From Cryobacterium glucosi (GTDB taxonomy: Bacteria; Actinomycetota; Actinomycetes; Actinomycetales; Microbacteriaceae), in contig NZ_SOFS01000039.1 in NCBI RefSeq assembly GCF_004402235.1, positions 4,415-68,414 on the forward strand: DNA of 64,000 nucleotides, read 5' to 3'. The position numbers and the translations under genes are program-made. The notes under the pieces are model-generated. The model did not search any database, was not told the DNA's origin, and saw nothing but the letters and a program-made list of their open reading frames with translations. Below are positions 5,545-52,281 of this stretch, in pieces; positions within the stretch are counted from its first letter, which is position 1; each line of letters begins with the position of its first letter.

Positions 5545-6930
5545 GTGACTCCTCGCGAACGCCGCATCCTGATCGTCGCCGTCCTCTCCTCCTTCGTCGC
5601 GTTCCTCGACGGGTCCATCGTCAACGTCGCACTCCCCGCGATCTCCCGCGAACTCGGCGGCGGCCTCACCCTGCAGCAGTGGGTCGTCGACGGCTACCTG
5701 CTCTCCCTCGGCGCCCTGATCCTCGTGGCCGGCTCGCTCTCGGATACCTTCGGCCGGGTGCGCGTTCTGCGGGTCGGCCTGATCTGGTTCGGGATCACTT
5801 CTCTCGCGTGCGCCGTCGCACCGTGGGGCGCCGCCCTCGTCGTCGCGCGGATCCTGCAGGGCGCTGCTGCCGCCCTTCTCGTTCCGAGCTCCCTCGCGCT
5901 CATCACCTCGACGTTCACCGGTCCTGCCCAGGGCCGGGCGATCGGCGTCTGGACAGGCTGGACCGGCATCGCGGGCATCGCCGGGCCCATCCTCGGCGGC
6001 GTCCTGGTCGACACGAGCAGCTGGCGGCTCGTGTTCGCGATCAACGTGCTCCCGATCGTGGCGACCCTCATCGTGCTCGCCGGAGTGCGGGAACCGGCGC
6101 GCACCGCTCCGGCCGCCCGGATCGACGTCGCCGGGGCCTGCCTCGCCGTCGTCGGCCTCGGCGGTCCCGTTTTCGCGCTCATCGAGCAGGGTCGGCTCGG
6201 CTGGGGCAGTCCCATCGTGTACCTGCCGCTCGTCTTCGGGCTGCTCTCCCTCGCCGCGTTCCTCTGGTGGGAGGCGCGCGCTCCGCACCCGATGATGCCC
6301 CTCGGCCTCTTCCGGGTGCGCAATTTCTGGGCAGGCAACCTCGCGACCGTCGGCATCTACGGTGCGCTGAGCCTCGGTTTCTTCATCTTCGCCGTCTACC
6401 TGCAACAGGTCGGCGGCCTCTCGGCGACGAGCGCGGGACTCGCGGGCATCCCGGCGACCCTGATGATGCTGTTCTTCTCGACATTGTTCGGCGGGCTCGC
6501 CGGCCGGTTCGGCCCGCGACTCTTCATGACCCTGGGTCCGATCGTGGCGGGCATCGGCTTCCTGATCCTGACCCTGGCCGTTCCCCCGGTGGATGTCTGG
6601 CGCACCGTGATCCCCGGCATCGCCGTCGTGGGCCTCGGGCTCTCGATCACGGTGGCACCCCTGACGGGCGCCGTGCTCGGCTCCATCCATCCTGAGCAGG
6701 CCGGAATCGGCTCGGCGATCAACAACGCCGTCTCCCGGGTCGCCGGACTCATCATGATCGCCTTCGCCGGCACGATCGCCGGCGAACAGCTCGGCGTCGC
6801 CGGGTTCCAGCGGGTCCTGCTGGTCACCGCCACGCTCATGTTCGCCGGCGCACTCGTGTCGTGGCTCGGCATCCGCACCCCGAAGAGCGGGGCGGATGCC
6901 GCAGCGCCTGCGGCAGGGGAACCCGCCTGA
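5545..6930 (+). CDS. MFS transporter, DHA2 (14-TM drug:H+ antiporter) type
   Basis: A 461-residue major facilitator. It begins directly at helix 1 with VAFLDGSIVNVALPAI, the DHA2-family signature, followed by QQWVVDGYLLSLGALIL, the loop GSLSDTFGRVRVL between helices 2 and 3, and the antiporter motif C-like GWTGIAGIAGPILGGVL in helix 5. Fourteen hydrophobic segments can be counted. Members export drugs, dyes or siderophores using the proton gradient. The frame stays open more than 1.3 kb further upstream, but that part is composition-driven; the GTG at 5545 begins the conserved domain. Confidence 0.9.
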   Translation: MTPRERRILIVAVLSSFVAFLDGSIVNVALPAISRELGGGLTLQQWVVDGYLLSLGALILVAGSLSDTFGRVRVLRVGLIWFGITSLACAVAPWGAALVVARILQGAAAALLVPSSLALITSTFTGPAQGRAIGVWTGWTGIAGIAGPILGGVLVDTSSWRLVFAINVLPIVATLIVLAGVREPARTAPAARIDVAGACLAVVGLGGPVFALIEQGRLGWGSPIVYLPLVFGLLSLAAFLWWEARAPHPMMPLGLFRVRNFWAGNLATVGIYGALSLGFFIFAVYLQQVGGLSATSAGLAGIPATLMMLFFSTLFGGLAGRFGPRLFMTLGPIVAGIGFLILTLAVPPVDVWRTVIPGIAVVGLGLSITVAPLTGAVLGSIHPEQAGIGSAINNAVSRVAGLIMIAFAGTIAGEQLGVAGFQRVLLVTATLMFAGALVSWLGIRTPKSGADAAAPAAGEPA

Positions 6931-6987
6931 GCGCGGCATCCGCGCCTCTCCCACCTGCCCTCGAACGGGAGGGGCCGGGAAATCTGT

Positions 6988-6993
6988 TATAGT
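6988..6993 (+). promoter_or_regulatory. -10 box (TATAGT) of tRNA-Arg
   Basis: TATAGT lies in a locally AT-rich stretch about 38 bases before the tRNA. No convincing -35 element is seen 17 bases further upstream. Confidence 0.45.
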
Positions 6994-7031
6994 TTCTAAG
7001 TTGTCTTCGCGAAGGATTTCGCCTGACACAT

Positions 7032-7104
7032 GCGCTCGTAGCTCAACGGATAGAGCATCTGACTACGGATCAGAAGGTTGGGGGTTCGAATCCCTTCGGG
7101 CGCA
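7032..7104 (+). tRNA. tRNA-Arg (anticodon ACG)
   Basis: A 73-base cloverleaf: acceptor arms GCGCTCG and CGGGCGC (one T-G pair), D-arm sequence GCTCAACGGATAGAGC, anticodon stem TCTGA/TCAGA enclosing CTACGGA (anticodon ACG), and T-loop GGTTCGAATCC. The discriminator is A; a CCA end is not encoded. A34 should be converted to inosine by the TadA encoded at 17973-18452, so this one tRNA reads CGU, CGC and CGA. Confidence 0.97.
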
Positions 7105-7110
7105 CAAGAC

Positions 7111-7146
7111 AAAAGCCCCGCACTCACTGAGATGCGGGGCTTTTTT
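7111..7146 (+). terminator. Rho-independent terminator of tRNA-Arg
   Basis: A 10-bp perfect stem (7113-7122 with 7133-7142) and a ten-base loop run into a six-base T tract, seven bases after the tRNA. Confidence 0.9.
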
Positions 7147-7189
7147 GTGGCTGTCCGCGGGATCCGCGGCCGAGCCCCCCAGCCGCGTC

Positions 7190-7795
7190 TCACTCGCCCA
7201 GGCGCCCGGGTGGAGCTGCGCGCACGTGCATCCGCTCGCCCTGGCGGCCGAAGAGGGTGAGGAACTCGACGTCGCCCGGACCGACCCGGCCGAACCAGTG
7301 CGGCGTGCGGGTGTCGAACTCGGCGGCCTCCCCGGCCGGGAGCACCAGGTCGTGCGTGCCGAGCACGAGCCGGAGGCGGCCCCGGAGCACGTAGATCCAC
7401 TCGTATCCCTCGTGCACCCTCGGATCCGGCTCACGCTCCGCTACCGTTGCGGGGATCAGGTGTTTGAACGCCTGCGGCCCGCCGCTCGCGCCGCGGGACA
7501 GCGGCACGATCGTCTGGTCGCGGTGCCGCGTCGGCCGGAGGTGGATGCGCGGGTCACCCGTCTCCGGCGCCCCGACCAGTTCGTCCAGCGGAACGCCATA
7601 GGCCCGCGCCAGTGGCAGCAGCAGCTCGAGTGCGGGACGCCGTTGCCCGGATTCGAGCCGGGACAGCGTGCTGACCGAGATGCCCGTGGCGCGCGACAGT
7701 TCGGCGAGTGTCATACCGTGCTCGCTGCGCCGCGCCCGAAGGAGCGGGCCGACGGCGGCGAGCATCGTCTCCGTCGTGGCGGAAGTGTCGTCCAT
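7190..7795 (-). CDS. XRE-family regulator with C-terminal cupin
   Basis: A 201-residue two-domain regulator: a Cro/CI helix-turn-helix at residues about 18-72 (MTLAELSRATGISVSTLSRLESG, with the recognition helix in the second half) and a cupin barrel at about 120-190 (EGYEWIYVLRGRLRLVLG, then AAEFDTRTPHWFG). In this family the cupin senses a small ligand. The frame extends past 8167, but the ATG at 7795 opens the domain and has CAAGAT six bases upstream. The methyltransferase is divergent with only 78 bp between the starts, so a shared control region is likely. Confidence 0.88.
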   Translation of the reverse strand: MDDTSATTETMLAAVGPLLRARRSEHGMTLAELSRATGISVSTLSRLESGQRRPALELLLPLARAYGVPLDELVGAPETGDPRIHLRPTRHRDQTIVPLSRGASGGPQAFKHLIPATVAEREPDPRVHEGYEWIYVLRGRLRLVLGTHDLVLPAGEAAEFDTRTPHWFGRVGPGDVEFLTLFGRQGERMHVRAAPPGRLGE

Positions 7796-7873
7796 GGGTC
7801 GATCTTGCCACTTCGGCAAACGGGCTTGGCGATTCCGTCGATCCTGTCCGAGCATCGAAGCAGGAGGTCTGCC

Positions 7874-8533
7874 ATGACACACGAGGAACACCCGTTCGGC
7901 CGCGACTACTGGGAGGAGCGTTACGCCGCCCCAGGGCTGGCGTGGAGCGGCGACCCGAACCCCGTGCTCGTCGCCGAAGTGACACCGCTCGCGCCGGGCC
8001 GCGCCCTCGACATCGGCAGCGGGGAAGGCGGCGACGCACTCTGGCTGGCGATGAGCGGGTGGCACGTCACCGGTGTCGACATCTCCACGAACGCGCTCGA
8101 CAAGGCACGTGCCCGGGCGGAGTCCGTCGACGGACCCGCCGCGGCGCGCATCCGCTGGGAGCAGCACGACCTGACGTCCTGGTCGCCAGAGCCCCGCTCA
8201 TTCGACCTCGTCACTTCGCAGTTCATGCACCTGCCCGAGAGCGCCCGAAGCGTGCTCTTCCGGGCCCTCGCGGCGGCCGTCGCGCCGGGCGGCACGCTGC
8301 TCATCGTCGGTCACGACGTCTCCGACGCTGATGCAGGCGAGCACCGGGCGCACTTCCGCGAGCTGATGTTCGGGGTCGACGACGTGCTCGCCGCGATCGA
8401 CGGCGCGGAACTCGAGGTCGAGGTCGCCGAATCGCGTGAGCGGGAGGCGCCCGCCGCCCACGACGGCGCGACCCCCGTGCGCGACGTGGTGGTCAGGGCG
8501 ACCCGGCCGGTCAGGCCTCCGGCAGCAGGATGA
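7874..8533 (+). CDS. Class I SAM-dependent methyltransferase
   Basis: A 219-residue Rossmann-fold methyltransferase. Motif I is ALDIGSGEGGDA (residues about 44-55), the acidic residue after strand 2 is in TGVDIS, and motif IV/V is SFDLVTSQFMHL. The start sequence DYWEERYAAPGLAWSGDPN is typical of Tam/thiopurine-like small-molecule methyltransferases; the substrate is unknown. AGGAGG at 7862-7867 fixes the ATG. The last 23 bases overlap the 3' end of the convergent AlkD-like gene. Confidence 0.87.
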   Translation: MTHEEHPFGRDYWEERYAAPGLAWSGDPNPVLVAEVTPLAPGRALDIGSGEGGDALWLAMSGWHVTGVDISTNALDKARARAESVDGPAAARIRWEQHDLTSWSPEPRSFDLVTSQFMHLPESARSVLFRALAAAVAPGGTLLIVGHDVSDADAGEHRAHFRELMFGVDDVLAAIDGAELEVEVAESREREAPAAHDGATPVRDVVVRATRPVRPPAAG

Positions 8534-9617
8534 ACGGCGTCCGGCCGTGGGTCACACCGTTCACCTGCAACTCGACGGCGTGCTCTCCGGGGTAGTAGCG
8601 ACGGGTGGTGATCGCCCGGAGCGAGTGCCCCTTGGTCAGCAGCACGACCTCGCCTGGCTCCAGGGTCAGGGTCGTGAGCTTGAACGTCTTGCCGGTGAGG
8701 GTGCCGTTCGCCTTCTGGTGGTGCAGGACATAGTCGACGGCCAGCCGGGTGGCCACACGGGCGTTGTTGCGGATGCTTGCGGTGAAGTCGACCGTTCCGC
8801 CGAACGCCACCTTCGTCTCGGCCAGCACCGGGCCGGCCACCGTCACATCGGCCGCATGGAAGCCGAGCTGGGCGAGGGCGGCAGGATTGCCTCGCTTCAC
8901 GAGGGTGCGCAGCGCGTGCCGCACGAGCCGGGCGGTGTGCCCGTCCGGCTCGGCGAGCCACTCGGCCGTCGTGGCGACCGCGAGCTCCGGCTGCTGCCTG
9001 CTCAGGTCGTTGAGATGGTTGGCGACCGACCGGCGCACGGCCTCGTCATCGTCGCGGTAGAGCGCGTGCAGGATCGGCAGGGTCGCGGTCGGCTCGGCGA
9101 GGATCCCCGGGACCCGCCGAGCCCAGGGCAGGAACGGCCGGGTGCCCTCGGTCGCGAGCCTGCGCACGTCGACGTCGGTCGAGGCGGTCCAGCCCAGCAC
9201 GACCGGGAGCGCCCGCTCGAGGTCGTGGTCGAGGAGTAGCCGGATCGCGAACTCGGAACTGAGCCGGCCGGTGAGCTCGGCGAGCATGCCCAGGGCGTCG
9301 TCGAAGGCGGCATCCGTGCCCGCCTCGATGCCCTTGACCGCGATCGCGGTCGACACCGGCCAGATCAGCCAGCCGGTGAACGGCGCGGTTCCCGACGCGG
9401 CTGCGCGGATGGTCGCGGCGAATGAGTCGTAGCCGCCCGGCAGGTCTGCCAGCAGGGCGTCACGCAACAGGTCGCTCCGCTCCCGCAGTGAGAGCGGGTC
9501 GAGCGCTTCCGTGGCTGCGCGCAGCGCGGTGAGCGGCGCGTGCGGTGTGACGGCCTGGATCGCCGCGGTGAGGGCGACCGCGGTCGGCACTCCGATGAGT
9601 TGGTCGGCGAAGGGCAT
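8511..9617 (-). CDS. AlkD-like DNA alkylation repair / HEAT-repeat protein
   Basis: A 368-residue all-helical protein. Helical pairs such as DVRRLATEGTRPFLPW and DDDEAVRRSVANHLNDLSR are HEAT-like repeats of the AlkC/AlkD superfamily, which flips out and removes alkylated bases. The C-terminal 90 residues (from about ETKVAFGGTVDFTASIRNN) look like a beta-rich appendage seen in the longer members (COG4335 type). The key Trp/Asp pair of AlkD cannot be assigned by eye, so activity is a family inference. AGGAG upstream supports the ATG at 9617. Together with the AlkA-like gene at 13.6 kb the region holds two candidate alkylation-repair genes. Confidence 0.78.
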   Translation of the reverse strand: MPFADQLIGVPTAVALTAAIQAVTPHAPLTALRAATEALDPLSLRERSDLLRDALLADLPGGYDSFAATIRAAASGTAPFTGWLIWPVSTAIAVKGIEAGTDAAFDDALGMLAELTGRLSSEFAIRLLLDHDLERALPVVLGWTASTDVDVRRLATEGTRPFLPWARRVPGILAEPTATLPILHALYRDDDEAVRRSVANHLNDLSRQQPELAVATTAEWLAEPDGHTARLVRHALRTLVKRGNPAALAQLGFHAADVTVAGPVLAETKVAFGGTVDFTASIRNNARVATRLAVDYVLHHQKANGTLTGKTFKLTTLTLEPGEVVLLTKGHSLRAITTRRYYPGEHAVELQVNGVTHGRTPFILLPEA

Positions 9618-9701
9618 GGGGCTCCTGGTGCTGGTGTAGCGGTGTACCCCTCCAGCGTGCCAGATTGCGGTCGCGCCGAACACCCCGCCGGTTTCTTCCG
9701 T

Positions 9702-9725
9702 CCGCGCCCGAAACGGCGGGCGCGG
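9702..9725 (-). terminator. Hairpin downstream of the P-type ATPase
   Basis: A 9-bp perfect GC-rich stem (9702-9710 with 9717-9725) around a six-base loop lies 53 bases after the ATPase stop. It has no T tract, so it may only slow polymerase or protect the mRNA end. Confidence 0.4.
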
Positions 9726-9777
9726 TGTGCCGAAACCAGCGCGGGCGCGGTGCCGGTCGCGGTGAGAAGCGGATGTC

Positions 9778-12570
9778 TCAGGCGCGGCCGGCGTCCGCGC
9801 TCGCACCGCGGCGCCGAAGGGCAGCAGCCCCCTCCCGGATCCCGAGGAACACGATCGCGGCACCGAGCACGAACGCCCAGTCCAGGACGCCGAGCCCGCT
9901 CGTGCCGAAGAAGCCCGCGACCACCGGCACGTAGACGATGACGAGCATGATCGTGATAGCGAGGGCGACTGCATACCAGAACGAGGGGTTGCTGAACTGG
10001 TACCTCGTGAAGAACCCGTGCACGCTGCGGCGCTGGATGATGCTGACGAGCTGGCAGATCATGATCGTGACGTAGGTGATCGACATCGCCTGGGCGAGCG
10101 GCAGAGCGGGCACGGTCTGGCTGAACGGGTCGATGCCGTTCCGGTCGTAGAACAGCAGGTAGTTCGTGATGGCGAAGATGCCCATCAGGGCACCGCACGA
10201 GAGCACGTCGACGATCGACCGTCCGTTCAGGATCCGGGCGCGGGAATCCCGGGGCGGGTCCTTCATCGTCTCCCCTTCGGCGGGGTCCTTGCCGAGCGCC
10301 GCGATCGGGAAGATCTCCCCGAGCAGGTCGATCGCGAGGATCTGCAACACGTTCAGGGCGAGGGGCACGCCGAACAGGGAGGCCAGGGCCAGGCTCGCGG
10401 TGTTGACCACGAACTCGGCGATGTTCGAGGTCAGGCAGCTGAGAACGCCCTTGGTGATGTTGCGGTAGATCGTCCGTCCCTCGGCGATCGCGTTCACGAG
10501 GGTTGCGAAGCTGTCGTCGAGCAGCACGATCTCGGCGGCCTGCTTGGCCACATCCGTCCCGGAGGCGCCCATCGCGACCCCGATGTTCGCATGCCGCAAT
10601 GCTGGCGCATCGTTGATGCCGTCGCCGGTGACGGCGACGATGTGCCCGGAGGCCTTGACGAGGTCGACGATACGCACCTTGTCCTCCGGCGCGACCCTGC
10701 TGAACACCGTGCCGCCGCCGAGTGCGTGACGGAGAACCTCGGCGTCGGGCATCACCGCAAGCTCCGCGCCGGTGACGATGCTGAGCCCGTCGTCGCCAGA
10801 GAGCCCGGCCTGGTGTGCGATGGCCTCGGCCGTGAGGGAGAAGTCGCCTGTCACGATGTTGACCTTCACCCCGGCTGCGAGCACGGTCGTCATGGCGGCG
10901 GGGACGGCAGCGCGGATCGGGTCCTGCATCGAGACGAGTCCCAGGATGGTCAGGTCGCGTTCGATGACATGGATGTCCCCGCTGGCGGCATCCGCTTCGG
11001 TGAGCACCCGCGTCGCGAAGACGAGGTTGCGGAGTGCGCGGCCCGCCTTCTCGGTGTGCCGGGCGAGCAGGGCCGCCCGGTCGGCGTCCGTGAGCGAACG
11101 CACGGCGGTGCCGTCGTCGATCAGGGTGGCCCGGGCGAGCAGGCTTTCCGGGGCGCCCTTCGAGTATGCGGTGAGCACTCCGTCCGGGTCCCGGCGGATG
11201 CTGGTCATCAGTTTCCGGGTGGAATCGAACGGCAGTTCGTCGATCTCGGGGCAGCGGGCGCGCAGGGCCTCGAGGTCGACTCCGGCCTTGCCGGCCACGA
11301 CGAGGAGCGCGCCTTCCGTCGGGTCGCCGAGGATGCGCCAGTCGTCGTCCCCGGCAGGGGCGACGAGGCGGGCGTTGTTCGCGAACACCCCGACGGTGAG
11401 GAACGCGCGCAGCCGGGCCGTTGCCGTGTCGCTCCGGGATTCCGGCTCGAAGACGCCGACGGGCGCGTAGCCGATCCCGGTGACCCGGTAGTCGGCGCCG
11501 CAGACGACGAGTTCGCTGACCGTCATCTCGTTCTTGGTGAGCGTGCCGGTCTTGTCGGTGCAGATCACGTGCGTCGCCCCGAGCGTCTCGACGGAGCTGA
11601 GCTTCTTGACCAGGGCGTTCTGCCGGGCGAGGGTGCCGGCCGCGGCGGCGAGCGCAGTGTTGACTTCGGCGGGCAGCCCCTGCGGGATGAGGGCGCAGGC
11701 GAATCCGACGGCGAAGAGCATCGCCTCGCGGAGCGGAAGCTCGGACTGCACGGCGATGACAAGCACGACGAGAGACACCACGGCGACGCCATAGCTGACG
11801 TACTTCGCGATCTTGCCCGTCTCCACCTGAAGTGGGCTGCGGGTCTGCGGAGCCGACTGGCTGAGCCGGGCGATTCGGCCGAGCTCGGTGTGCATCCCGG
11901 TCGCGGTGACGAGTCCGAGCGCCTCACCGGTGGCGACGCTCGTGCCCGCGAAAGCCAGGTTGTGCCGGTCCGCGAGCGGCACCTCGTGCGGGATCGGCCG
12001 CGCGTACTTCCGGGTCGGGTCGCTCTCCCCGGTCAGGGCGAAGTCGTTGGTGGAGAAGGCGGTGGTGTCGACCAGTCTCACGTCGGCGGGTACTGAGGCG
12101 CCTTCGGTCAGGCGCACCACGTCCCCGGGCACGAGCGCCCGGGATTCGATCTCGGTCAGGGCGCCGTCCCGATAGACCTGGGTGGTCGGGTCGACGAGCC
12201 TTTCGAGCGCCTCCATGGTCTTCTCCGCGCGGTTCTCCTGCACGAAACCGATCAGGGTGTTGAATCCGACGAGTGCGACGAGGACGCCGGCGGTGCCCAG
12301 GTCGCCGAGAAACCCCGTGATGGCGGCGCTCGCGAGGAGCAACACGATCATCCAGTCGGCGAACTGGCGCAGGTAGCGCCTCAGCGTGGATTCCTTCTTG
12401 AGGGTGACGATCGCATTGCTGCCCGCGCGGATCCGCCGCTCGTCCGCGGCGCCGGTCGTGAGGCCGGAGCGGGAGCTCCCGAATGCGCTGAGCACCTCAT
12501 CAGCTGTTTCCCGATAGATCGACGCGGCGGGGTCAGCAGAATCGGCAGGGTGGAGCTGCGGCAAGCTCAT
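9778..12570 (-). CDS. P2-type cation-transporting ATPase
   Basis: A 930-residue P-type ATPase. In order: N-terminal domain, helices 1-2 (about 70-112), actuator loop with TGES at 180-183, helices 3-4 with PQGLP at 296-300, phosphorylation motif DKTGT with Asp339, nucleotide domain, hinge TGDGINDAP, and six C-terminal helices. The layout is that of the Ca2+/Mg2+/Na+-pumping P2 group, not the metal CxxC P1B type. The PEGLP glutamate that binds the ion in calcium pumps is Gln here, and the helix-6 region reads AIDLLGEIFPIAALG, so the transported ion cannot be assigned. It is monocistronic with a leaderless -10 box. Confidence 0.9.
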   Translation of the reverse strand: MSLPQLHPADSADPAASIYRETADEVLSAFGSSRSGLTTGAADERRIRAGSNAIVTLKKESTLRRYLRQFADWMIVLLLASAAITGFLGDLGTAGVLVALVGFNTLIGFVQENRAEKTMEALERLVDPTTQVYRDGALTEIESRALVPGDVVRLTEGASVPADVRLVDTTAFSTNDFALTGESDPTRKYARPIPHEVPLADRHNLAFAGTSVATGEALGLVTATGMHTELGRIARLSQSAPQTRSPLQVETGKIAKYVSYGVAVVSLVVLVIAVQSELPLREAMLFAVGFACALIPQGLPAEVNTALAAAAGTLARQNALVKKLSSVETLGATHVICTDKTGTLTKNEMTVSELVVCGADYRVTGIGYAPVGVFEPESRSDTATARLRAFLTVGVFANNARLVAPAGDDDWRILGDPTEGALLVVAGKAGVDLEALRARCPEIDELPFDSTRKLMTSIRRDPDGVLTAYSKGAPESLLARATLIDDGTAVRSLTDADRAALLARHTEKAGRALRNLVFATRVLTEADAASGDIHVIERDLTILGLVSMQDPIRAAVPAAMTTVLAAGVKVNIVTGDFSLTAEAIAHQAGLSGDDGLSIVTGAELAVMPDAEVLRHALGGGTVFSRVAPEDKVRIVDLVKASGHIVAVTGDGINDAPALRHANIGVAMGASGTDVAKQAAEIVLLDDSFATLVNAIAEGRTIYRNITKGVLSCLTSNIAEFVVNTASLALASLFGVPLALNVLQILAIDLLGEIFPIAALGKDPAEGETMKDPPRDSRARILNGRSIVDVLSCGALMGIFAITNYLLFYDRNGIDPFSQTVPALPLAQAMSITYVTIMICQLVSIIQRRSVHGFFTRYQFSNPSFWYAVALAITIMLVIVYVPVVAGFFGTSGLGVLDWAFVLGAAIVFLGIREGAAALRRRGASADAGRA

Positions 12571-45802: not shown

Positions 45803-47017
45803 ATGAAACGGCCACAGTTTCTCACGCACATCCGCCCACGAACCTGGGTGGTTGCCGGCGTCATCGTGCTCGCCCTCGCGGGCGGCAGCATCTACTGGTT
45901 CGGATTCGCCGTTCCGGCGAACACCAAGTCCACGGTCGCCGCTCCCATCACCACCGCAGCGAGCCTGACGACCATGCAGAAGACCGTCGACAGCGACGGC
46001 ACCGCGACCCCGACCGTGAACGACTCGGTCAGCTTCGCCGTGTCCGGTACCGTCACGGCCGTGCCGGTCGTCGCGGGGACCACCGTGACCGCTGGCCAGG
46101 TGCTCGCAACCGTCGACACGCTCAGCCTCGACGCCGCCGTGCTCGAAGCGCAGGCGACGCTCGCGACCGCGAAGGCGAAACTCGCCACGAGCGTGAGCGA
46201 CAGCGATGGAACCGCCGCTGCCGTCGCTCAGATCGCGGCCCAGACGGCATCCGTCGCCGTCGACGAGGCCGCCGTCGTGACCGCGCAGGCCGCAGTCGCC
46301 GGTGCGACCCTCACCGCCCCCGCCGCCGGCCTCGTCACCGCGGTCAACGTCGCCGTCGGCGACGTGATCTCCTCGGGCAGCTCGGGCAGTTCTGGGGCCG
46401 GGGGAGCCACGACCGCCTCGACCGCCTCGACCTCGACGAGCACGGCCGACTTCAGCATCGTCGGAACAGACTCGTGGTCGCTCTCCCTCGCCATCGGCGA
46501 GTCGGACATCGCCAACGTCGCGGTCAACGACCAGGTCGAACTCTCCCTCGACGACGGCACCGCGTTCTTCGGAACCGTGCAGTCCGTCGGCATCCTGCCG
46601 TCGACGACCTCCGGAGCGGTCACCTACCCCGTCGTCGTCGCCGTCACCGGCGACCCCGACGGCCTCTACGACGGCGTCGCCGTCACGGCCAAAATCGTCT
46701 ACGAGCGTCGCACCAACGTGCTCACCGTCCCGAGCGCCGCGGTCACGACCGCGGACGGCGTCTCCACGGTGAAGACCCTCGACGCCTCCGGCACTGCGGT
46801 TGCGACGACTGTCACCGTCGGCGAGACCGTCGGCAATGTCACCGAGATCCTCACCGGGATCGCAGAGGGCGACGAAGTCGTGGTCGTGACATTCACCCCT
46901 GGCTCCGGCAACAGCGGCTCGACGACCGACCGGCAGAGCGGCGGCAGCGGCGGATTCCCGTCCGGCGGCCCGCCCTCCGGTGGAATGACCCAGGGAAACG
47001 GGTCGAACGGTGGTTGA
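45803..47017 (+). CDS. HlyD/MacA-family efflux adaptor (exporter gene 1)
   Basis: A 404-residue membrane-anchored adaptor. One helix at about 15-35, then the barrel-sandwich domain split around a helical segment (FAVSGTVTAVPVVAGTTVTAGQVLATV ... ATLTAPAAGLVTAVNVAVGD), and a beta-barrel domain at 225-330. A Gly/Ser-rich tail ends the protein. In Gram-positive bacteria such adaptors work with MacB-type ABC transporters on the outer face of the membrane. GAGGAG precedes the ATG. It overlaps the ATPase gene by eight bases. Confidence 0.86.
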   Translation: MKRPQFLTHIRPRTWVVAGVIVLALAGGSIYWFGFAVPANTKSTVAAPITTAASLTTMQKTVDSDGTATPTVNDSVSFAVSGTVTAVPVVAGTTVTAGQVLATVDTLSLDAAVLEAQATLATAKAKLATSVSDSDGTAAAVAQIAAQTASVAVDEAAVVTAQAAVAGATLTAPAAGLVTAVNVAVGDVISSGSSGSSGAGGATTASTASTSTSTADFSIVGTDSWSLSLAIGESDIANVAVNDQVELSLDDGTAFFGTVQSVGILPSTTSGAVTYPVVVAVTGDPDGLYDGVAVTAKIVYERRTNVLTVPSAAVTTADGVSTVKTLDASGTAVATTVTVGETVGNVTEILTGIAEGDEVVVVTFTPGSGNSGSTTDRQSGGSGGFPSGGPPSGGMTQGNGSNGG

Positions 47018-47804
47018 GCCGCTCGCGAACCCGTTCGCCCCCCTGCCCGCGCCCCAGGCGGCGGTACTGTCCGCAGCCCTGCCCGCCCACCCGTGGGTGC
47101 TCGAAGCGGATGCCGCAGGCCCCGTCATCGAGCTCATCGACGCCGGAAAGACCTACAGGTCCGGCACCATCGAATTCGAAGCACTGAAAGGGATCAACCT
47201 CGCCATCCACGAGGGCGAGTACGTCGCCATCATGGGGCCGTCCGGCTCCGGGAAATCCACCATCATGAACATCCTCGGCTGCCTCGACACCCTCACCCGC
47301 GGCCAGTACCGCCTCGGCGGCACCGACGTCGAGGAGCTCGACGAGATCGAACTCGCGAGCGTGCGCAACCAGCAGATCGGCTTCGTCTTCCAGGGCTTCA
47401 ACCTGCTGTCCTCGCTCCCGGCCTGGCGCAACGTCGAACTTCCGCTCGTCTACGGGCACGTCCCGCGCGAGGAACGCAGGAAGCGCGCGAGCCGCGCCCT
47501 CGAACGCGTCGGCCTCGGCGACCGCCTCGACAACAAGCCTGGAGAGATGAGCGGCGGCCAGCAGCAGCGCGTCGCCGTCGCCAGGGCCCTCGTCGGGGAA
47601 CCGACCATGATCCTCGCCGACGAACCGACCGGAAACCTCGACTCGGTGTCGACCCGCGACGTGCTCACCTTGTTCGACGAACTCAACGCCCTCGGCCGCA
47701 CGATCGTCCTGATCACCCATGAACTCGAGGTCGCCCAGCGCGCCCGCCGCATCGTTTGGGTCAAGGACGGCGCCATCATCAGGGACGAGGTGAATGCGGC
47801 ATGA
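47010..47804 (+). CDS. MacB/LolD-type ABC transporter ATPase (exporter gene 2)
   Basis: A 264-residue ATP-binding subunit. Walker A GPSGSGKST, Q-loop FVFQGFNLL, signature MSGGQQQRVAVARAL, Walker B MILADEPTGNLDS and H-loop LITHELEVA are complete. The first 35 residues are an Ala/Pro-rich extension before the domain. GTG start inside the adaptor gene; its stop overlaps the permease start (ATGA). The short LolD/MacB class hydrolyses ATP to drive extracytoplasmic substrate expulsion. Confidence 0.95.
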   Translation: MVEPLANPFAPLPAPQAAVLSAALPAHPWVLEADAAGPVIELIDAGKTYRSGTIEFEALKGINLAIHEGEYVAIMGPSGSGKSTIMNILGCLDTLTRGQYRLGGTDVEELDEIELASVRNQQIGFVFQGFNLLSSLPAWRNVELPLVYGHVPREERRKRASRALERVGLGDRLDNKPGEMSGGQQQRVAVARALVGEPTMILADEPTGNLDSVSTRDVLTLFDELNALGRTIVLITHELEVAQRARRIVWVKDGAIIRDEVNAA

Positions 47805-49033
47805 CCTGGATGGAGAGTTTCCGCACCAGCTGGAGCGCCGTCTACTCCCACGCCCTGCGTTCGATGCTCACGATCCTCGGGATCCTGATCGGCATCGCCG
47901 CGGTCATCCTGACCGTCGGCCTCGGCCTCGGCACCCAGCTCGACGTCAGCGCCCAGATCAGCTCCCTCGGCAGCAACCTGCTCATCGTCGCCCCCGGCAG
48001 CAGCACGAGCACAACGGGAACCCGCGGCGGCTTCGGCACGAGCGCGACACTCACGATCAAGGACGCCGAGGCCCTCAGCTCCACCGTGAACGCCCCCGAC
48101 ATCTCCGGGGTCGCCCCGGAGAGCACCACCTCGCTCTCGCTGACGGCCAATGACACCAACTGGACGACGACGGTCACGGGAACCACGACCGCGTGGACCT
48201 CGGTGCGGCAGCGCACCCTCGCCCGCGGCTCCTTCTTCACCCAGGCCCAGGCGGATGCCTCCGCAGCGGTCGTCGTGCTCGGCTCGGAGACCGCCGACGA
48301 ACTCTTCGGCACCCAGAACGTGGTCGGCCAGTCCGTCGTGATCAGCGACAAGACCTTCCAGGTGGTCGGCGTGCTCGCCACGGCGGGCTCGGATTCCTCG
48401 AGCAACCTCGACGACGTGGCCATCGTGCCGTTCAGCACGGCGGCCACCGCCCTCGTCGGCGGCACCTCGAGCAATGCGGTGTCGACGATCTACCTGCAGG
48501 CCGCCTCGGACACGCAACTGTCCGCCGCGTACCAGGAGGCCGACGCGCTCCTGCTCAACCTGCACTCGATCTCCTCGACGGACGACGCCGACTTCACCAT
48601 CAGCAGTCAGGACGCCCTGGTCAGCACCGCGACAGCGGTCTACCAGACCCTGACGATCCTCCTCACCGGCGTCGCCGGGCTGTCGCTCCTCGTCGGCGGC
48701 ATCGGCGTGATGAACATCATGCTCGTCTCGGTTTCCGAGCGCACCAGGGAGATCGGCCTCCGCAAGGCGCTCGGCGCCCCACCGTGGGCGATCCGGCGCC
48801 AGTTCCTGATCGAGGCCGCCATCCTCGGGCTGTCCGGCGGAATCCTCGGTGCCGTGATCGGCGTCGTTGCCGCCCTGACCCTGCCCGCGGTGATCGGAAG
48901 CTCGATCGTGGTGTCCCCGCTCGCGGTCGGGCTGTCCATCGGCGTGGCGATCGCCATCGGCATCGTCTTCGGGGTCTACCCCGCCACCCGGGCGGCCAAG
49001 CTCGCGCCGATCGATGCGCTCAGGAGCGAGTAG
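47801..49033 (+). CDS. MacB-type ABC transporter permease (exporter gene 3)
   Basis: A 410-residue permease: N-terminal helix (RSMLTILGILIGIAAVILTVGLG), an extracytoplasmic MacB_PCD domain (about 45-280), then three C-terminal helices beginning GVAGLSLLVGGIGVMNIML and VSERTREIGLRKALGA. The topology is that of MacB/FtsX mechanotransmission transporters. Substrate unknown (peptide, lipid or antibiotic are known for relatives). Confidence 0.93.
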   Translation: MTWMESFRTSWSAVYSHALRSMLTILGILIGIAAVILTVGLGLGTQLDVSAQISSLGSNLLIVAPGSSTSTTGTRGGFGTSATLTIKDAEALSSTVNAPDISGVAPESTTSLSLTANDTNWTTTVTGTTTAWTSVRQRTLARGSFFTQAQADASAAVVVLGSETADELFGTQNVVGQSVVISDKTFQVVGVLATAGSDSSSNLDDVAIVPFSTAATALVGGTSSNAVSTIYLQAASDTQLSAAYQEADALLLNLHSISSTDDADFTISSQDALVSTATAVYQTLTILLTGVAGLSLLVGGIGVMNIMLVSVSERTREIGLRKALGAPPWAIRRQFLIEAAILGLSGGILGAVIGVVAALTLPAVIGSSIVVSPLAVGLSIGVAIAIGIVFGVYPATRAAKLAPIDALRSE

Positions 49034-49136
49034 CCATGCGCGTCAACCGAACCCACGCCCCGCACGACTCGCCCGGCAGGCAGAACCGGCCCCGGGCATC
49101 CGCTTCAGCCACCGTTCCACGTCCATTGGAGACCTC

Positions 49137-50018
49137 ATGACCCGCACTCGACCGACCACCCGTTTCGCCACCAACTTCGGAGTTCTTCTCGCCCTCGGCG
49201 GAGTGCTCCTCCTGACCGGCTGCGCCGCGGGGGCGAGCACGGCCGCGGTCCCGGCCGCCTCGTCAGCCCCGGCGGCCTCGGCTGGGGGGCAGGGAGACGG
49301 GGGCATCACCGGCACCATCGCCTCCGTTGCCGCCGGCATCCTGCAGGTTCAGGATTCCAGCACCCAGACCGCCGTGTCGTACACGGCCGCGACGACGATC
49401 ACTGCGACCGTGACGGGCGCCCTGACGGATGTCTCCGTCGGCCGTTGCGTCTCCGTCTCCGGCTTCACCGCGGCGAGCGGTACGACGGTGGCCACCGCCG
49501 CGACGAGCGTGACCGTGACCGACGCGGTGGATGGAGCCTGCACGACGGGCAACCGCGGTGGCGGCGCGGGCGGAACGGGCGGGGCCGACGGCACCATGCC
49601 GAGCGGTGCCCCCGATGGGACCGCACCGACCGATATGCCGACTGACATGCCGACGGACATGCCGACCGACGGCGCCACCGGCGCCCCGGGCGGGATGACA
49701 GGAGGTTTCCCGGTCAGCGGACTCGTGACCGCGGTCACCGCCGACTCGATCACCATCGACGCCGTTGGCATGGGAGGCACGGACACGACCTCGACCGCGG
49801 TCACCGTCGCGTCCACGACCACGTACCTCAACACGGTCGCCTCCGACTCGAGCGCCCTCGTCGTCGGCGCGTGCGCCGTGGCGACCGGCGCCTCGGACAC
49901 GAGCGGCGGCTTCGCCGCGACCGCCCTGAAGATCTCGACCGCCACCGCGGACGGCTGCGTCTCGCGGTCGGGCTTCGGCGGCGGAACCCGTCCGAGCGGG
50001 AGCACCTCCAATGAGTAG
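49137..50018 (+). CDS. DUF5666-like lipoprotein (exporter gene 4)
   Basis: A 293-residue predicted lipoprotein with lipobox LLTGCA (Cys about 28). Two similar beta-rich repeats (GTIASVAAGILQVQDSSTQ and GLVTAVTADSITIDAVG), each like DUF5666, are separated by a Gly-rich linker with four PTDM units. GGAG precedes ATG 49137. It lies 103 bp after the permease and overlaps the second adaptor by eight bases, so it belongs to the same unit. It may cap or dock the exporter on the cell surface; this is inference. Confidence 0.75.
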   Translation: MTRTRPTTRFATNFGVLLALGGVLLLTGCAAGASTAAVPAASSAPAASAGGQGDGGITGTIASVAAGILQVQDSSTQTAVSYTAATTITATVTGALTDVSVGRCVSVSGFTAASGTTVATAATSVTVTDAVDGACTTGNRGGGAGGTGGADGTMPSGAPDGTAPTDMPTDMPTDMPTDGATGAPGGMTGGFPVSGLVTAVTADSITIDAVGMGGTDTTSTAVTVASTTTYLNTVASDSSALVVGACAVATGASDTSGGFAATALKISTATADGCVSRSGFGGGTRPSGSTSNE

Positions 50019-52146
50019 GACTCCCTTCGGCGCCTCCCGCAAGGCGGCCCGCGCGGAGGCTGCGGCAGCCGCAGCCGCAGCGGCCGCAGCCGGGGCTTCG
50101 CCTGCGACCGCGAAATCCGTCAGGACGGCCCGATCGGCGAAGGCCGTCGTGAAGCGCCGCCGGCGCCTGATTGCCCTCGGCGCGGTCACCGCCGTGCTCT
50201 GCGCCTCGGGCGGCGGGGTCGTCTACGCGATGAACCGCACGGACAGCGGCAACTTCCGCACCGTCGTCGCCGCAACGGGAACGGTGAGCCAGTCGCTCGC
50301 CGTCACCGGGACCGTCGCACCGACCACCAGGAAGGATGCCGCCTTCTCCGTCGGCGGGACCGTCGCGACGGTCGACGTCGCGGTCGGGGCCATCGTGACC
50401 GCCGGTCAGACCCTCGCGACCCTCGACGCCACGGATCTGGCCGCCGCGGTCACGAAGGCGGAGGAGACCGTCACCGCAGCCGAGCAGACCCTCACCGACG
50501 ACCTCGACTCCCAGACCGCCACCGCGACAACCGCGACCACCGCGACGTCGTCGACGTCGTCTACGGCCGTCGCGACCGGGTCCTCGTCGGCGGCTTCAGT
50601 GTCCGGGGGCACCACGGACACGAGCTCGGGAACGACGGGAGCGTCGACCGGCTCGACCCCGACCGTTTCGAACGCGGCCGTGACGGCGGCCGTGACCGCG
50701 GTCACCGCAGCCCAGGCGGCGCTCCTCGCGAAATACACCGATGCCCAGACCGCGGTCGCCGCGAGCGACGCGACCATGGCCTCGACCGACGAGACCTGCA
50801 AGCCGTTCATCGACGCGGCACTCGACGACGCCGCGACGACCGACACGAGCGCGACCGACACGATCACCGCCACGACGGATGCCTCGCCCACCGCCACCGC
50901 CACGCCGACCCCGACCCCGACCCCGACCCCGACAGCGACCCCGACGGCGACCCCGACGGCGACCGCTGACCCTGCGACCGCCGCCGAGCGACTCGCCGCC
51001 GCGAAGGCCGACCTGGCCGCCTGCCAGACCGCCATCACCGCGGTCCTCGCCGGCCAGAAGACCGTCGACACGGCCCAGCAGGACGTGCTGACCCTCGTGA
51101 CCGCGCTGAACTCCGCCGTCACCGGCCTCACCGACGCCGTCACGGCGGCGAATGCCGCCACGACGACCGCGACGACCGGAAGCTCAACCGGGACCACGGG
51201 AGCCACCGGCACCGGCACGACAACGGGTGCGACCGGCACGACAACGGGTACAGCAGCAACCGCGGGCACCACGTCAGGGACAGCAACGGGCACCACGTCC
51301 ACCGCCACCGGAACCACCGGGACGACCGGAACCATCTCCGGAGCCGGCACGGGCTCGACGGCGACGACGACGGTCGCCTCGGCCGAGACGATCGTCGCCG
51401 ACCGGGCCGACATCGCCGCGGCAGGGGCTCAGCTCGCCATCGCCCAGAAGCAGGCCACCCTCGCCACCCTCACGGCCCCGTACGCCGGAACCGTCGCCGC
51501 GGTGGCGATCCTTGCCGGCGACACCGTCTCGGCGGCGTCGACCACCGCCGTCATCACGATCCTCGGCAATGACGGCTACGTCATCGACTCGACCGTGTCC
51601 CTCGCGAGCGTCGCGAGCCTCGAGGTCGGCCAGACCGCGAAGATCGAACTCGCCACGACGGGAACGGAACTGACCGGGGTCGTCAGCTCCATCGGCATCC
51701 TGAACGTCTCGACGTCGTCGACGCCGAAATATGCGGTCACCCTCGCCGTCGACGCGACGGACGCCACAATCCTGACGGGGGCCTCCGCCCAGGTCACGGT
51801 CGCGATCGAGAGCACGGATGCCGTGCTCACCGTGCCGACCTCTGCCGTGCACCGCGACGGCTCGGCATACACCGTCGACCTGCTCGTCGCCGGTACCTCC
51901 ACCTCGACGACGGTCACGGTCGGCGCGGTCGGCACCGAGCTCACCGAGATCGACTCCGGCCTCGTGGCCGGCGACGTCGTGATCCTCGCCGACCTGGACG
52001 ACGCGATCCCGGGGACCGCGGCCGACACGAGCTCGAGCCTCACCAGCCTCGGCGGTTCGAGCAGTGGAAGCAGCACCGATTTCCAGGGCGGCCCGCCATC
52101 CGGCGACTTCAGCGGCTTCAGCGGTGGCACCCCGCCCCAGGGCTGA
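50011..52146 (+). CDS. Large HlyD-like adaptor with low-complexity hairpin region (exporter gene 5)
   Basis: A 711-residue second adaptor. An Ala-rich cytoplasmic segment, one helix near 52-72, then the lipoyl half GTVATVDVAVGAIVTAGQTLATLD; the second half is at about 490 (LTAPYAGTVAAVAILAGDTVSA), followed by a beta-barrel and a Gly/Ser tail. The 370 residues between halves, normally an alpha hairpin, are Thr/Ala/Ser-rich with TPTPTPTPTPTATPTATPTA and TGTTTGATGTT-like repeats. Its length is nearly twice that of the first adaptor. Confidence 0.8.
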   Translation: MSRTPFGASRKAARAEAAAAAAAAAAAGASPATAKSVRTARSAKAVVKRRRRLIALGAVTAVLCASGGGVVYAMNRTDSGNFRTVVAATGTVSQSLAVTGTVAPTTRKDAAFSVGGTVATVDVAVGAIVTAGQTLATLDATDLAAAVTKAEETVTAAEQTLTDDLDSQTATATTATTATSSTSSTAVATGSSSAASVSGGTTDTSSGTTGASTGSTPTVSNAAVTAAVTAVTAAQAALLAKYTDAQTAVAASDATMASTDETCKPFIDAALDDAATTDTSATDTITATTDASPTATATPTPTPTPTPTATPTATPTATADPATAAERLAAAKADLAACQTAITAVLAGQKTVDTAQQDVLTLVTALNSAVTGLTDAVTAANAATTTATTGSSTGTTGATGTGTTTGATGTTTGTAATAGTTSGTATGTTSTATGTTGTTGTISGAGTGSTATTTVASAETIVADRADIAAAGAQLAIAQKQATLATLTAPYAGTVAAVAILAGDTVSAASTTAVITILGNDGYVIDSTVSLASVASLEVGQTAKIELATTGTELTGVVSSIGILNVSTSSTPKYAVTLAVDATDATILTGASAQVTVAIESTDAVLTVPTSAVHRDGSAYTVDLLVAGTSTSTTVTVGAVGTELTEIDSGLVAGDVVILADLDDAIPGTAADTSSSLTSLGGSSSGSSTDFQGGPPSGDFSGFSGGTPPQG

Positions 52147-52151
52147 GCCCG

Positions 52152-52239
52152 CGTTCCGAATTCAGGAGACGGCCTCGGATTCCGGCCAGAACCGGTCAGA
52201 AAACCGGTTCAGCCGGGCGCAACTCCTGAATTCGGAACG
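52152..52239. terminator. 17-bp perfect inverted repeat with nested 8-bp stem
   Basis: Arms 52152-52168 and 52223-52239 are perfectly complementary; 52189-52196 and 52203-52210 form an inner perfect stem. It fills the gap between the convergent adaptor and LacI-family genes. Confidence 0.68.
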
Positions 52240-52281
52240 GGGGCGGCGGTGGATTCGACGCGGGGCGCGAACGGGTGAGGT

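Follow-up and report, generated by a model that had tools for sequence, protein, structure and literature searches.

MacAB-like exporters described from Gram-positive bacteria have one adaptor each (PMC5768738, PMC5985334; publications are cited here from excerpts), and reviews likewise give such systems a single adaptor, with YknW as an extra component (PMC5985334, PMC4446572). In this study, a locus with two adaptors is described from Cryobacterium glucosi. It lies at positions 45803-52146 of a 64,000-nucleotide stretch of contig NZ_SOFS01000039.1 (this whole stretch is called the window below) and consists of five consecutive genes on the + strand, encoding an adaptor (A), an ATP-binding cassette (ABC) ATPase (B), a permease (C), a lipoprotein (D) and a second adaptor (E):

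45803..47017, + strand: gene A, first adaptor, 404 aa, with a short hairpin, no cysteine and a Ser/Gly-rich gate-loop insert
47010..47804, + strand: gene B, ABC ATPase, 264 aa, GTG start
47801..49033, + strand: gene C, MacB-type permease, 410 aa, MacB_PCD and FtsX domains
49137..50018, + strand: gene D, lipoprotein, 293 aa, with two DUF5666-like small beta-barrels
50011..52146, + strand: gene E, second adaptor, 711 aa, with a MacA-like core

A preliminary description, made from the sequence alone, had seen in this locus a five-gene MacAB-like exporter whose two adaptors are unequal and which includes a surface lipoprotein, and the gene calls, the Pfam assignments and the conservation of the genes as a block bear this out. 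Its premise that typical Gram-positive systems have one adaptor agrees with the excerpts of PMC5768738 and PMC5985334. It had also proposed that the system was undescribed, and no account of the arrangement was found in the largely open-access literature searched; nothing there on two-adaptor systems, DUF5666, actinobacterial MacB lipoproteins or YknX was recognised as this arrangement.

With MacAB and Spr0693-0694-0695 the locus shares a MacB-type permease, an ABC ATPase and a MacA-like adaptor; it differs from them in having two specialised adaptors, a distal cysteine module and a lipoprotein gene. The adaptor of the pneumococcal MacAB-like pump is a hexamer seated on the transporter, and the pump as modelled rises about 154 Å above the membrane (PMC5768738). 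The helical barrel of Spr0693 is 56 Å high (PMC5768738), whereas the helices added in E would measure about 87-100 Å at 1.5 Å per residue. YknWXYZ of Bacillus is another Gram-positive MacAB-like exporter with an extra component; YknW, however, is a membrane protein and YknX the sole adaptor (PMC5985334), whereas D is a two-barrel lipoprotein. No YknW-type membrane protein is encoded among the five genes, D being the only extra non-adaptor gene. The Tri pump of Pseudomonas aeruginosa is of the resistance-nodulation-division (RND) type. TriABC resembles the present locus, with its two different adaptors in one operon, in being a two-adaptor pump, but it has the outer-membrane partner OpmH (Mima et al. 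2007, cited in PMC4446572), whereas here the adaptors accompany a MacB/FtsX permease and an ABC ATPase. Finally, YbjP, likened to D by its description, is a lipoprotein accessory of a MacAB pump; it binds the outer-membrane protein TolC (PMC13082787), whereas no TolC gene is among the five genes here.

The function of adaptors in bacteria that lack an outer membrane has been raised as an open question (PMC5985334, PMC4446572). In the system described here gate and reach appear to have been separated into two proteins, apparently twice, so that each could be removed or changed alone. In addition, DUF5666, a domain of unknown function, is tied to an exporter in many actinobacteria.

Conservation of the five-gene block

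The transporter core is of MacB type. B is an ABC_tran protein by Pfam and carries motifs that we take to be Walker A (GPSGSGKST), the signature (SGGQQQR) and Walker B (LADEP). Its best match was the MacB model (258 bits), below the equivalog cut-off of 966 bits, as expected for a separate ATPase because that model is a fused one. C exceeded the Pfam cut-offs for both MacB_PCD (146.4 bits) and FtsX (74 bits); against the curated models it scored 216 bits for MacB and 44 bits for the LolC/E permease (cut-off 362), reaching neither curated cut-off. A and E are HlyD/biotin-lipoyl adaptors by Pfam, and both pass TIGR01730 (102 and 113 bits against 94.9). The genes had been said all to overlap or nearly so, which holds at three junctions (coding overlaps of 8 nt for A/B, 4 nt for B/C and 8 nt for D/E) and fails at the fourth, where C and D are 103 nt apart.

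In a class sample of 296 genomes, the permease profile at E<=1e-100 gave 37 matches in 36 genomes, 35 of them (that of the window included) at 425 bits or more and two at about 341 bits. Around the 34 strong loci other than that of the window, D adjoins C in 33 (it is absent in G310), while E is present in all 32 loci uncut by a contig end (two are cut) and A in all 27 uncut ones (seven are cut). Both weak loci have an adaptor upstream and none downstream.

In a survey of named loci, some of which recur among those 34 (L174=L018, L190=L027, L191=L024), the permease profile fetched 80 loci, the first 40 of which were read, several of them ending at a contig end soon after C. The permease was at least 46% identical in 20 of the 40, and E lies downstream of C in 17 of these 20 (two partial, at a contig end). 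D follows C directly in 10 of the 20 and is itself followed by E in nine; in the remaining one, L029, E is absent and D is without the lipobox cysteine. Neither D nor E was seen in L033 and L040, the L040 contig ending 1.4 kb after C. Where the permease was at most 44% identical (the other 20 loci), no E or D was found downstream, several contigs again ending soon after C. D and E overlap by 1 or 8 nt in eight of nine named loci and by 34 nt in the ninth (the starts of E being our choice). All five genes occur in Herbiconiux, Cellulomonas, Amycolatopsis, Demequina, Aeromicrobium, Miniimonas and Frankia torreyi, among others, and E without D in several Propionibacteriales and one Acidimicrobiia genome. 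The preliminary description had proposed a search for the five-gene order in other actinobacteria; judging from these loci, it is kept in many genera and is above chance. We regard this as a well-supported conserved system, with export as its probable function.

Nearer to the window the distribution of D is patchy. When the window protein was used as query, D was found in 8 of the 60 genomes near the window (its own included) and in 5 of the 36 other genomes of the same genus. In the other seven of those eight genomes D stands with A, B, C and E, the block being intact in six and decayed in one. The decayed block (L016 of genome G035, about 5887-10113; A truncated, C broken and E split) indicates loss in the genus of the window.

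The linkage of E to the exporter was also followed with its last 263 residues as query in 118 genomes. Outside the window, 13 matches reached at least 76 bits and all lie in exporter loci (that of G169 on a contig breaking inside D). Among the next matches, G141:C106 (74.9 bits) and G073 (73.8 bits; short hairpin, no cysteine) lie outside such loci and G053 (74.0 bits) inside. In the lists of open reading frames (ORFs) of 18 named loci, produced by a simple ORF caller, unannotated and read by eye, no neighbour gene was seen recurring, near relatives apart; the flanks differ between genera, as expected if the block was inherited as a unit. No match to the permease at E<=1e-60 was found in the plasmid collection.

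The two adaptors

A and E differ at two places, the gate loop and the hairpin. The hairpin of A, between the lipoyl halves, spans 62 residues in the window and 54-62 residues in 18 A rows of the alignment (rows L028 and L038 gave none). These spans are motif-based, since those from hmmalign were inflated; among the rows so measured, L029 and L033 belong to single adaptors. The gate loop of A carries an insert:

46370..46447, + strand: Ser/Gly/Thr/Ala insert in A, 26 codons, at the place of the MacA gate loop (from sequence and alignments)

Gln209 is the gate residue of MacA (PMC5768738), and its place in the alignment follows our own count on the MacA sequence. The gate span is 54-103 residues in A (except for the badly aligned row L028) versus 42-51 residues in E (except for row L198, cut by a contig end), E being without the insert. 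The hairpins, in turn, hold no cysteine in any of the 48 A rows (46 distinct) and exactly two in each of the 55 E rows (52 distinct), these being Cys263 and Cys338 in the window.

A Thr/Ala-rich stretch had at first been thought to replace the alpha hairpin in E. The alignment, the AlphaFold model and the cysteine counts led to rejection of this proposal: the hairpin is elaborated, a near-normal proximal hairpin being kept and a distal helical pair added. The model has four helices in this region (residues 140-174, 219-276, 321-387 and 458-483), separated by Thr/Ser/Ala/Pro stretches. The outer two together have the length and position that the entire hairpin has in A, and the inner two form the added distal module:

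50428..50532, + strand: E proximal hairpin, outgoing helix, residues 140-174 (predicted model)
50533..50664, + strand: E Thr/Ser linker 1, residues 175-218 (alignment, predicted model)
50665..50838, + strand: E distal helix 1, residues 219-276, with Cys263 at 50797-50799 (alignment, predicted model)
50839..50970, + strand: E tip, Pro/Thr-rich, residues 277-320 (alignment, predicted model)
50971..51171, + strand: E distal helix 2, residues 321-387, with Cys338 at 51022-51024 (alignment, predicted model)
51172..51381, + strand: E Thr/Gly linker 2, residues 388-457 (alignment, predicted model)
51382..51459, + strand: E proximal hairpin, returning helix, residues 458-483 (predicted model)

Most of the adaptor core is modelled with a confidence of about 90. 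The best match of the model in the PDB was MacA (9qgy/5nik), Spr0693 (5xu0) being matched as well, and the profile of E matched MacA at E=4e-48. Both the length and the sequence of the linkers are highly variable, whereas the cysteines are kept. A disulfide between the two hairpin cysteines of E is likely. Hairpin spans obtained by motif are too short in some E rows.

The lipoprotein

The preliminary description had placed a DUF5666-like lipoprotein with PTDM repeats ahead of E, and this stands: D has a lipobox (LTGC, with Cys29 at 49221-49223) and PTDM repeats, and 8 of 11 D homologues (that of the window included) match DUF5666 (PF18914) at E<=0.01, the best at 2.8e-8. Its parts are as follows:

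49305..49541, + strand: D barrel 1, residues 57-135, with conserved Cys104 and Cys135 (alignment, predicted model)
49620..49688, + strand: D linker with PTDM repeats, residues 162-184 (sequence)
49713..49958, + strand: D barrel 2, residues 193-274, with conserved Cys246 and Cys274 (alignment, predicted model)

In the predicted model both small beta-barrels have a confidence of about 90 and the PTDM linker a low one. All 11 homologues keep the four cysteines, of which each barrel has two. D differs from DUF5666 as such in that it has two barrels of this kind and a conserved pair of cysteines in each of them, and the window protein itself stays below the cut-off (17.5 bits against a gathering score of 27), the D loci of G102, G110, G165 and G169 being above it. 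Taken by Pfam alone, DUF5666 is a poor marker, found in 12 of 118 genomes, the genome of the window not among them; at least 5 of the 15 places with a Pfam match are in or beside a MacB-type locus. In the excerpts of PMC12455991 a DUF5666 protein is named solely within a mycobacterial regulon table. A Foldseek search with D matched nothing in the PDB at E<=0.001. VIA-align gave many matches to small barrels (Z 7-9, OB-like by our reading), which may reflect a common arrangement only.

In the class sample D was found at E<=1e-10 in 40 of the 296 genomes. Besides the complete loci, G064 has D- and adaptor-like pieces interrupted by a stop, the 11.7 kb that were read there containing no permease, contig C6 of G141 has an adaptor before D and then ends, and G040 has a weak D match beside a weaker permease. 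D-like two-barrel cysteine proteins, single or paired and most with a lipobox, occur without an exporter in genus g29 (L137, L140, L141, L143 and L133). By our reading, a DUF5666-like protein, apparently membrane-anchored and without the four cysteines, stands beside other MacB-type exporters in L142 (5972-6799), L206 and L028 (12972-13991).

Origin and working of the adaptor pair

Four single-adaptor actinobacterial relatives (L029 and L040 of the Acidimicrobiaceae, L206 and L207) combine a Ser/Gly gate loop with a long hairpin that has a cysteine pair at its middle; in L040 a second adaptor could lie beyond the contig end. Two hairpin cysteines occur in 7 of 27 single-adaptor rows, a count that includes L058, in which the cysteines are not at the tip and which was not used. 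Because the four relatives carry the gate insert and the cysteine arm together, one ancestral adaptor seems, on these alignments, to have been split into a gate adaptor (A) and a reach adaptor (E).

In a tree built from core columns (hairpin cut out and sparse columns dropped, with the gate region likewise cut or filtered; 25 rows skipped where the motif cut failed, and 45 of the remaining rows used), E forms one clade (100/98) and A forms one clade (90/96); earlier trees agree on the single clade of E. The Acidimicrobiaceae adaptors L029 and L040 may either predate the split or come from lineages that lost A; A and E as one clade without them was not rejected in the approximately unbiased (AU) test (p 0.325).

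The weaker E matches G111 and G143 led to a second two-adaptor system, in family f35. It has a short-hairpin adaptor with the gate insert beside B and C (L253, L254), together with a divergent adaptor whose arm is long and bears two cysteines, the gate insert being absent from it:

L253, 3377-8612: f35 two-adaptor system
L254, 3447-8617: f35 two-adaptor system

A match was obtained in 20 of the 61 genomes of this family. The two adaptors stand side by side and are divergent in all 14 genomes where they share a contig, and one genome has them on separate contigs. Two hairpin cysteines were counted in all 14 long-arm forms read and none in the 15 short forms read, 13 of which have the Ser/Gly gate insert (L264 gave no row, and the gate spans of L259, L268, L269, L270 and L274 are motif misfits). 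By our reading, the arm between the cysteines is Thr/Pro-rich rather than helical in f35. The f35 short and long forms (A2 and E2) form a clade of their own in the core tree (95/88). A single origin of the arm of E and the f35 long arm was rejected (E+E2, AU p 7.7e-5), as was an A+A2 clade (AU p 8.6e-5, a constraint tested after the first tree had been seen). The simplest account of these trees would be two separate duplications, each followed by the same split of jobs. As a separate observation, in the Anaerolineae loci L049 and L051 two adaptors, one ATPase and two MacB-type permeases stand in a row.

We somewhat favour the reading that the locus encodes a MacAB-like exporter with a split adaptor, in which A and E form a mixed ring reaching into the cell wall and D is an accessory. 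The substrate, which we guess to be an amphipathic or peptide-like molecule, would be picked up at the membrane's outer face and driven by B and C, at the cost of ATP, into a tube of adaptors standing on C. A would contribute a short hairpin and also, by way of its enlarged and flexible Ser/Gly loop, the gate ring. E would supply the reach: its proximal hairpin would pack beside that of A, and its distal coiled coil, with the cysteine pair near the tip, would push the outlet from the membrane zone into the wall, the flexible Thr/Ser linkers being possibly glycosylated. A and E would most probably sit in one ring, for which TriABC offers a two-adaptor precedent. D would be a membrane-anchored double barrel acting on the outer side, perhaps receiving or shielding the substrate. 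It is possible that the arm of E spans the cell wall, as the preliminary description had suggested. More tentatively, MacB exporters of the Actinomycetota may have split their adaptor at least twice, giving a mixed tube with a disulfide-locked tip and glycosylated linkers that crosses the wall and is capped, or its substrate received, by D, that is, an analogue of tripartite pumps without TolC.

Several observations weigh against the favoured reading. D occurs without an exporter on a contig of G141 and in five genomes of genus g29, in one of which it lies close to the end of its contig. It is absent from some systems that have A or B-C together with E (L025, L031, L034, L036 and L038; G310). 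From these gene contents D is thus not essential to the adaptor pair, and the view of the lipoprotein and second adaptor as inseparable from the exporter holds for E in its 13 strongest matches and only in part for D. No regulator, toxin or biosynthetic gene was seen recurring beside the block, which leaves the substrate a guess. The AlphaFold model of E is built on 16 sequences, with a mean predicted local distance difference test score (pLDDT) of 70 and a predicted template modelling score (pTM) of 0.43, and the linkers fall below 50 (residues 176-215, most of 279-319, and 391-450). The single adaptors of L043, L052 and L061 have a long arm and a gate insert without cysteines, and in those of L055 and L094 (Chloroflexota-type) the insert is missing although the hairpin holds two cysteines, so that more than one ancestral adaptor state is conceivable. 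In the first tree, built on whole sequences, the remaining A proteins were farther than E from those of Amycolatopsis, Frankia and L028. In f35, five of the 20 genomes with a match have the short form only, and gene conversion between paired adaptors could mimic two duplications.

Among the other explanations, the best surviving, which we nevertheless think improbable, is that A and E are interchangeable: rings would consist of A alone or of E alone, both kinds using the one B-C pump and each suited to other substrates or conditions. Both proteins do keep an adaptor core, and E belongs to a separate, D-E coupled part of the operon after the 103-nt gap; their features, however, are complementary rather than alternative and are combined in the four single-adaptor relatives, A and E are kept together in every uncut class locus, and the same split recurs in family f35. 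Rather less probable is a role in envelope building, with the pump moving a lipid or lipoprotein and D serving as cargo or carrier, as in LolCDE of Gram-negative bacteria. The D gene does lie between C and E and is linked to C at nearly all strong class loci, it follows C also in the single-adaptor locus L029 (there lacking the lipobox cysteine), and a small barrel could hold a ligand. C nevertheless fits MacB far better than LolCE, even with both curated cut-offs unreached, D is missing where B-C-E is intact, and D-like proteins occur without a pump. It is equally doubtful that the long arm of E is a wall anchor or spacer outside the channel whose Thr/Ser stretches tether the pump in peptidoglycan: the variable linkers beside constant cysteines, the Thr/Pro-rich f35 arm and the binding of purified YknX to peptidoglycan (PMC5985334) would fit, but a pure spacer would need neither two long helices nor a conserved cysteine pair such as E has.

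The five-gene block is flanked on one side by a YajQ-like gene and on the other by a LacI-type gene, both on the - strand (names read from the sequence). Directly 3' of gene E, at 52147-52243 of the window, lies a large palindrome with an RNA fold of -66 kcal/mol (z -8.8). It has 22 matches in its own genome at E<=0.01, counting that of the window itself and short arm-to-arm matches, and one of them, on contig C25, is a nearly full-length copy (78%). By its sequence, it looks like a dispersed palindromic repeat.

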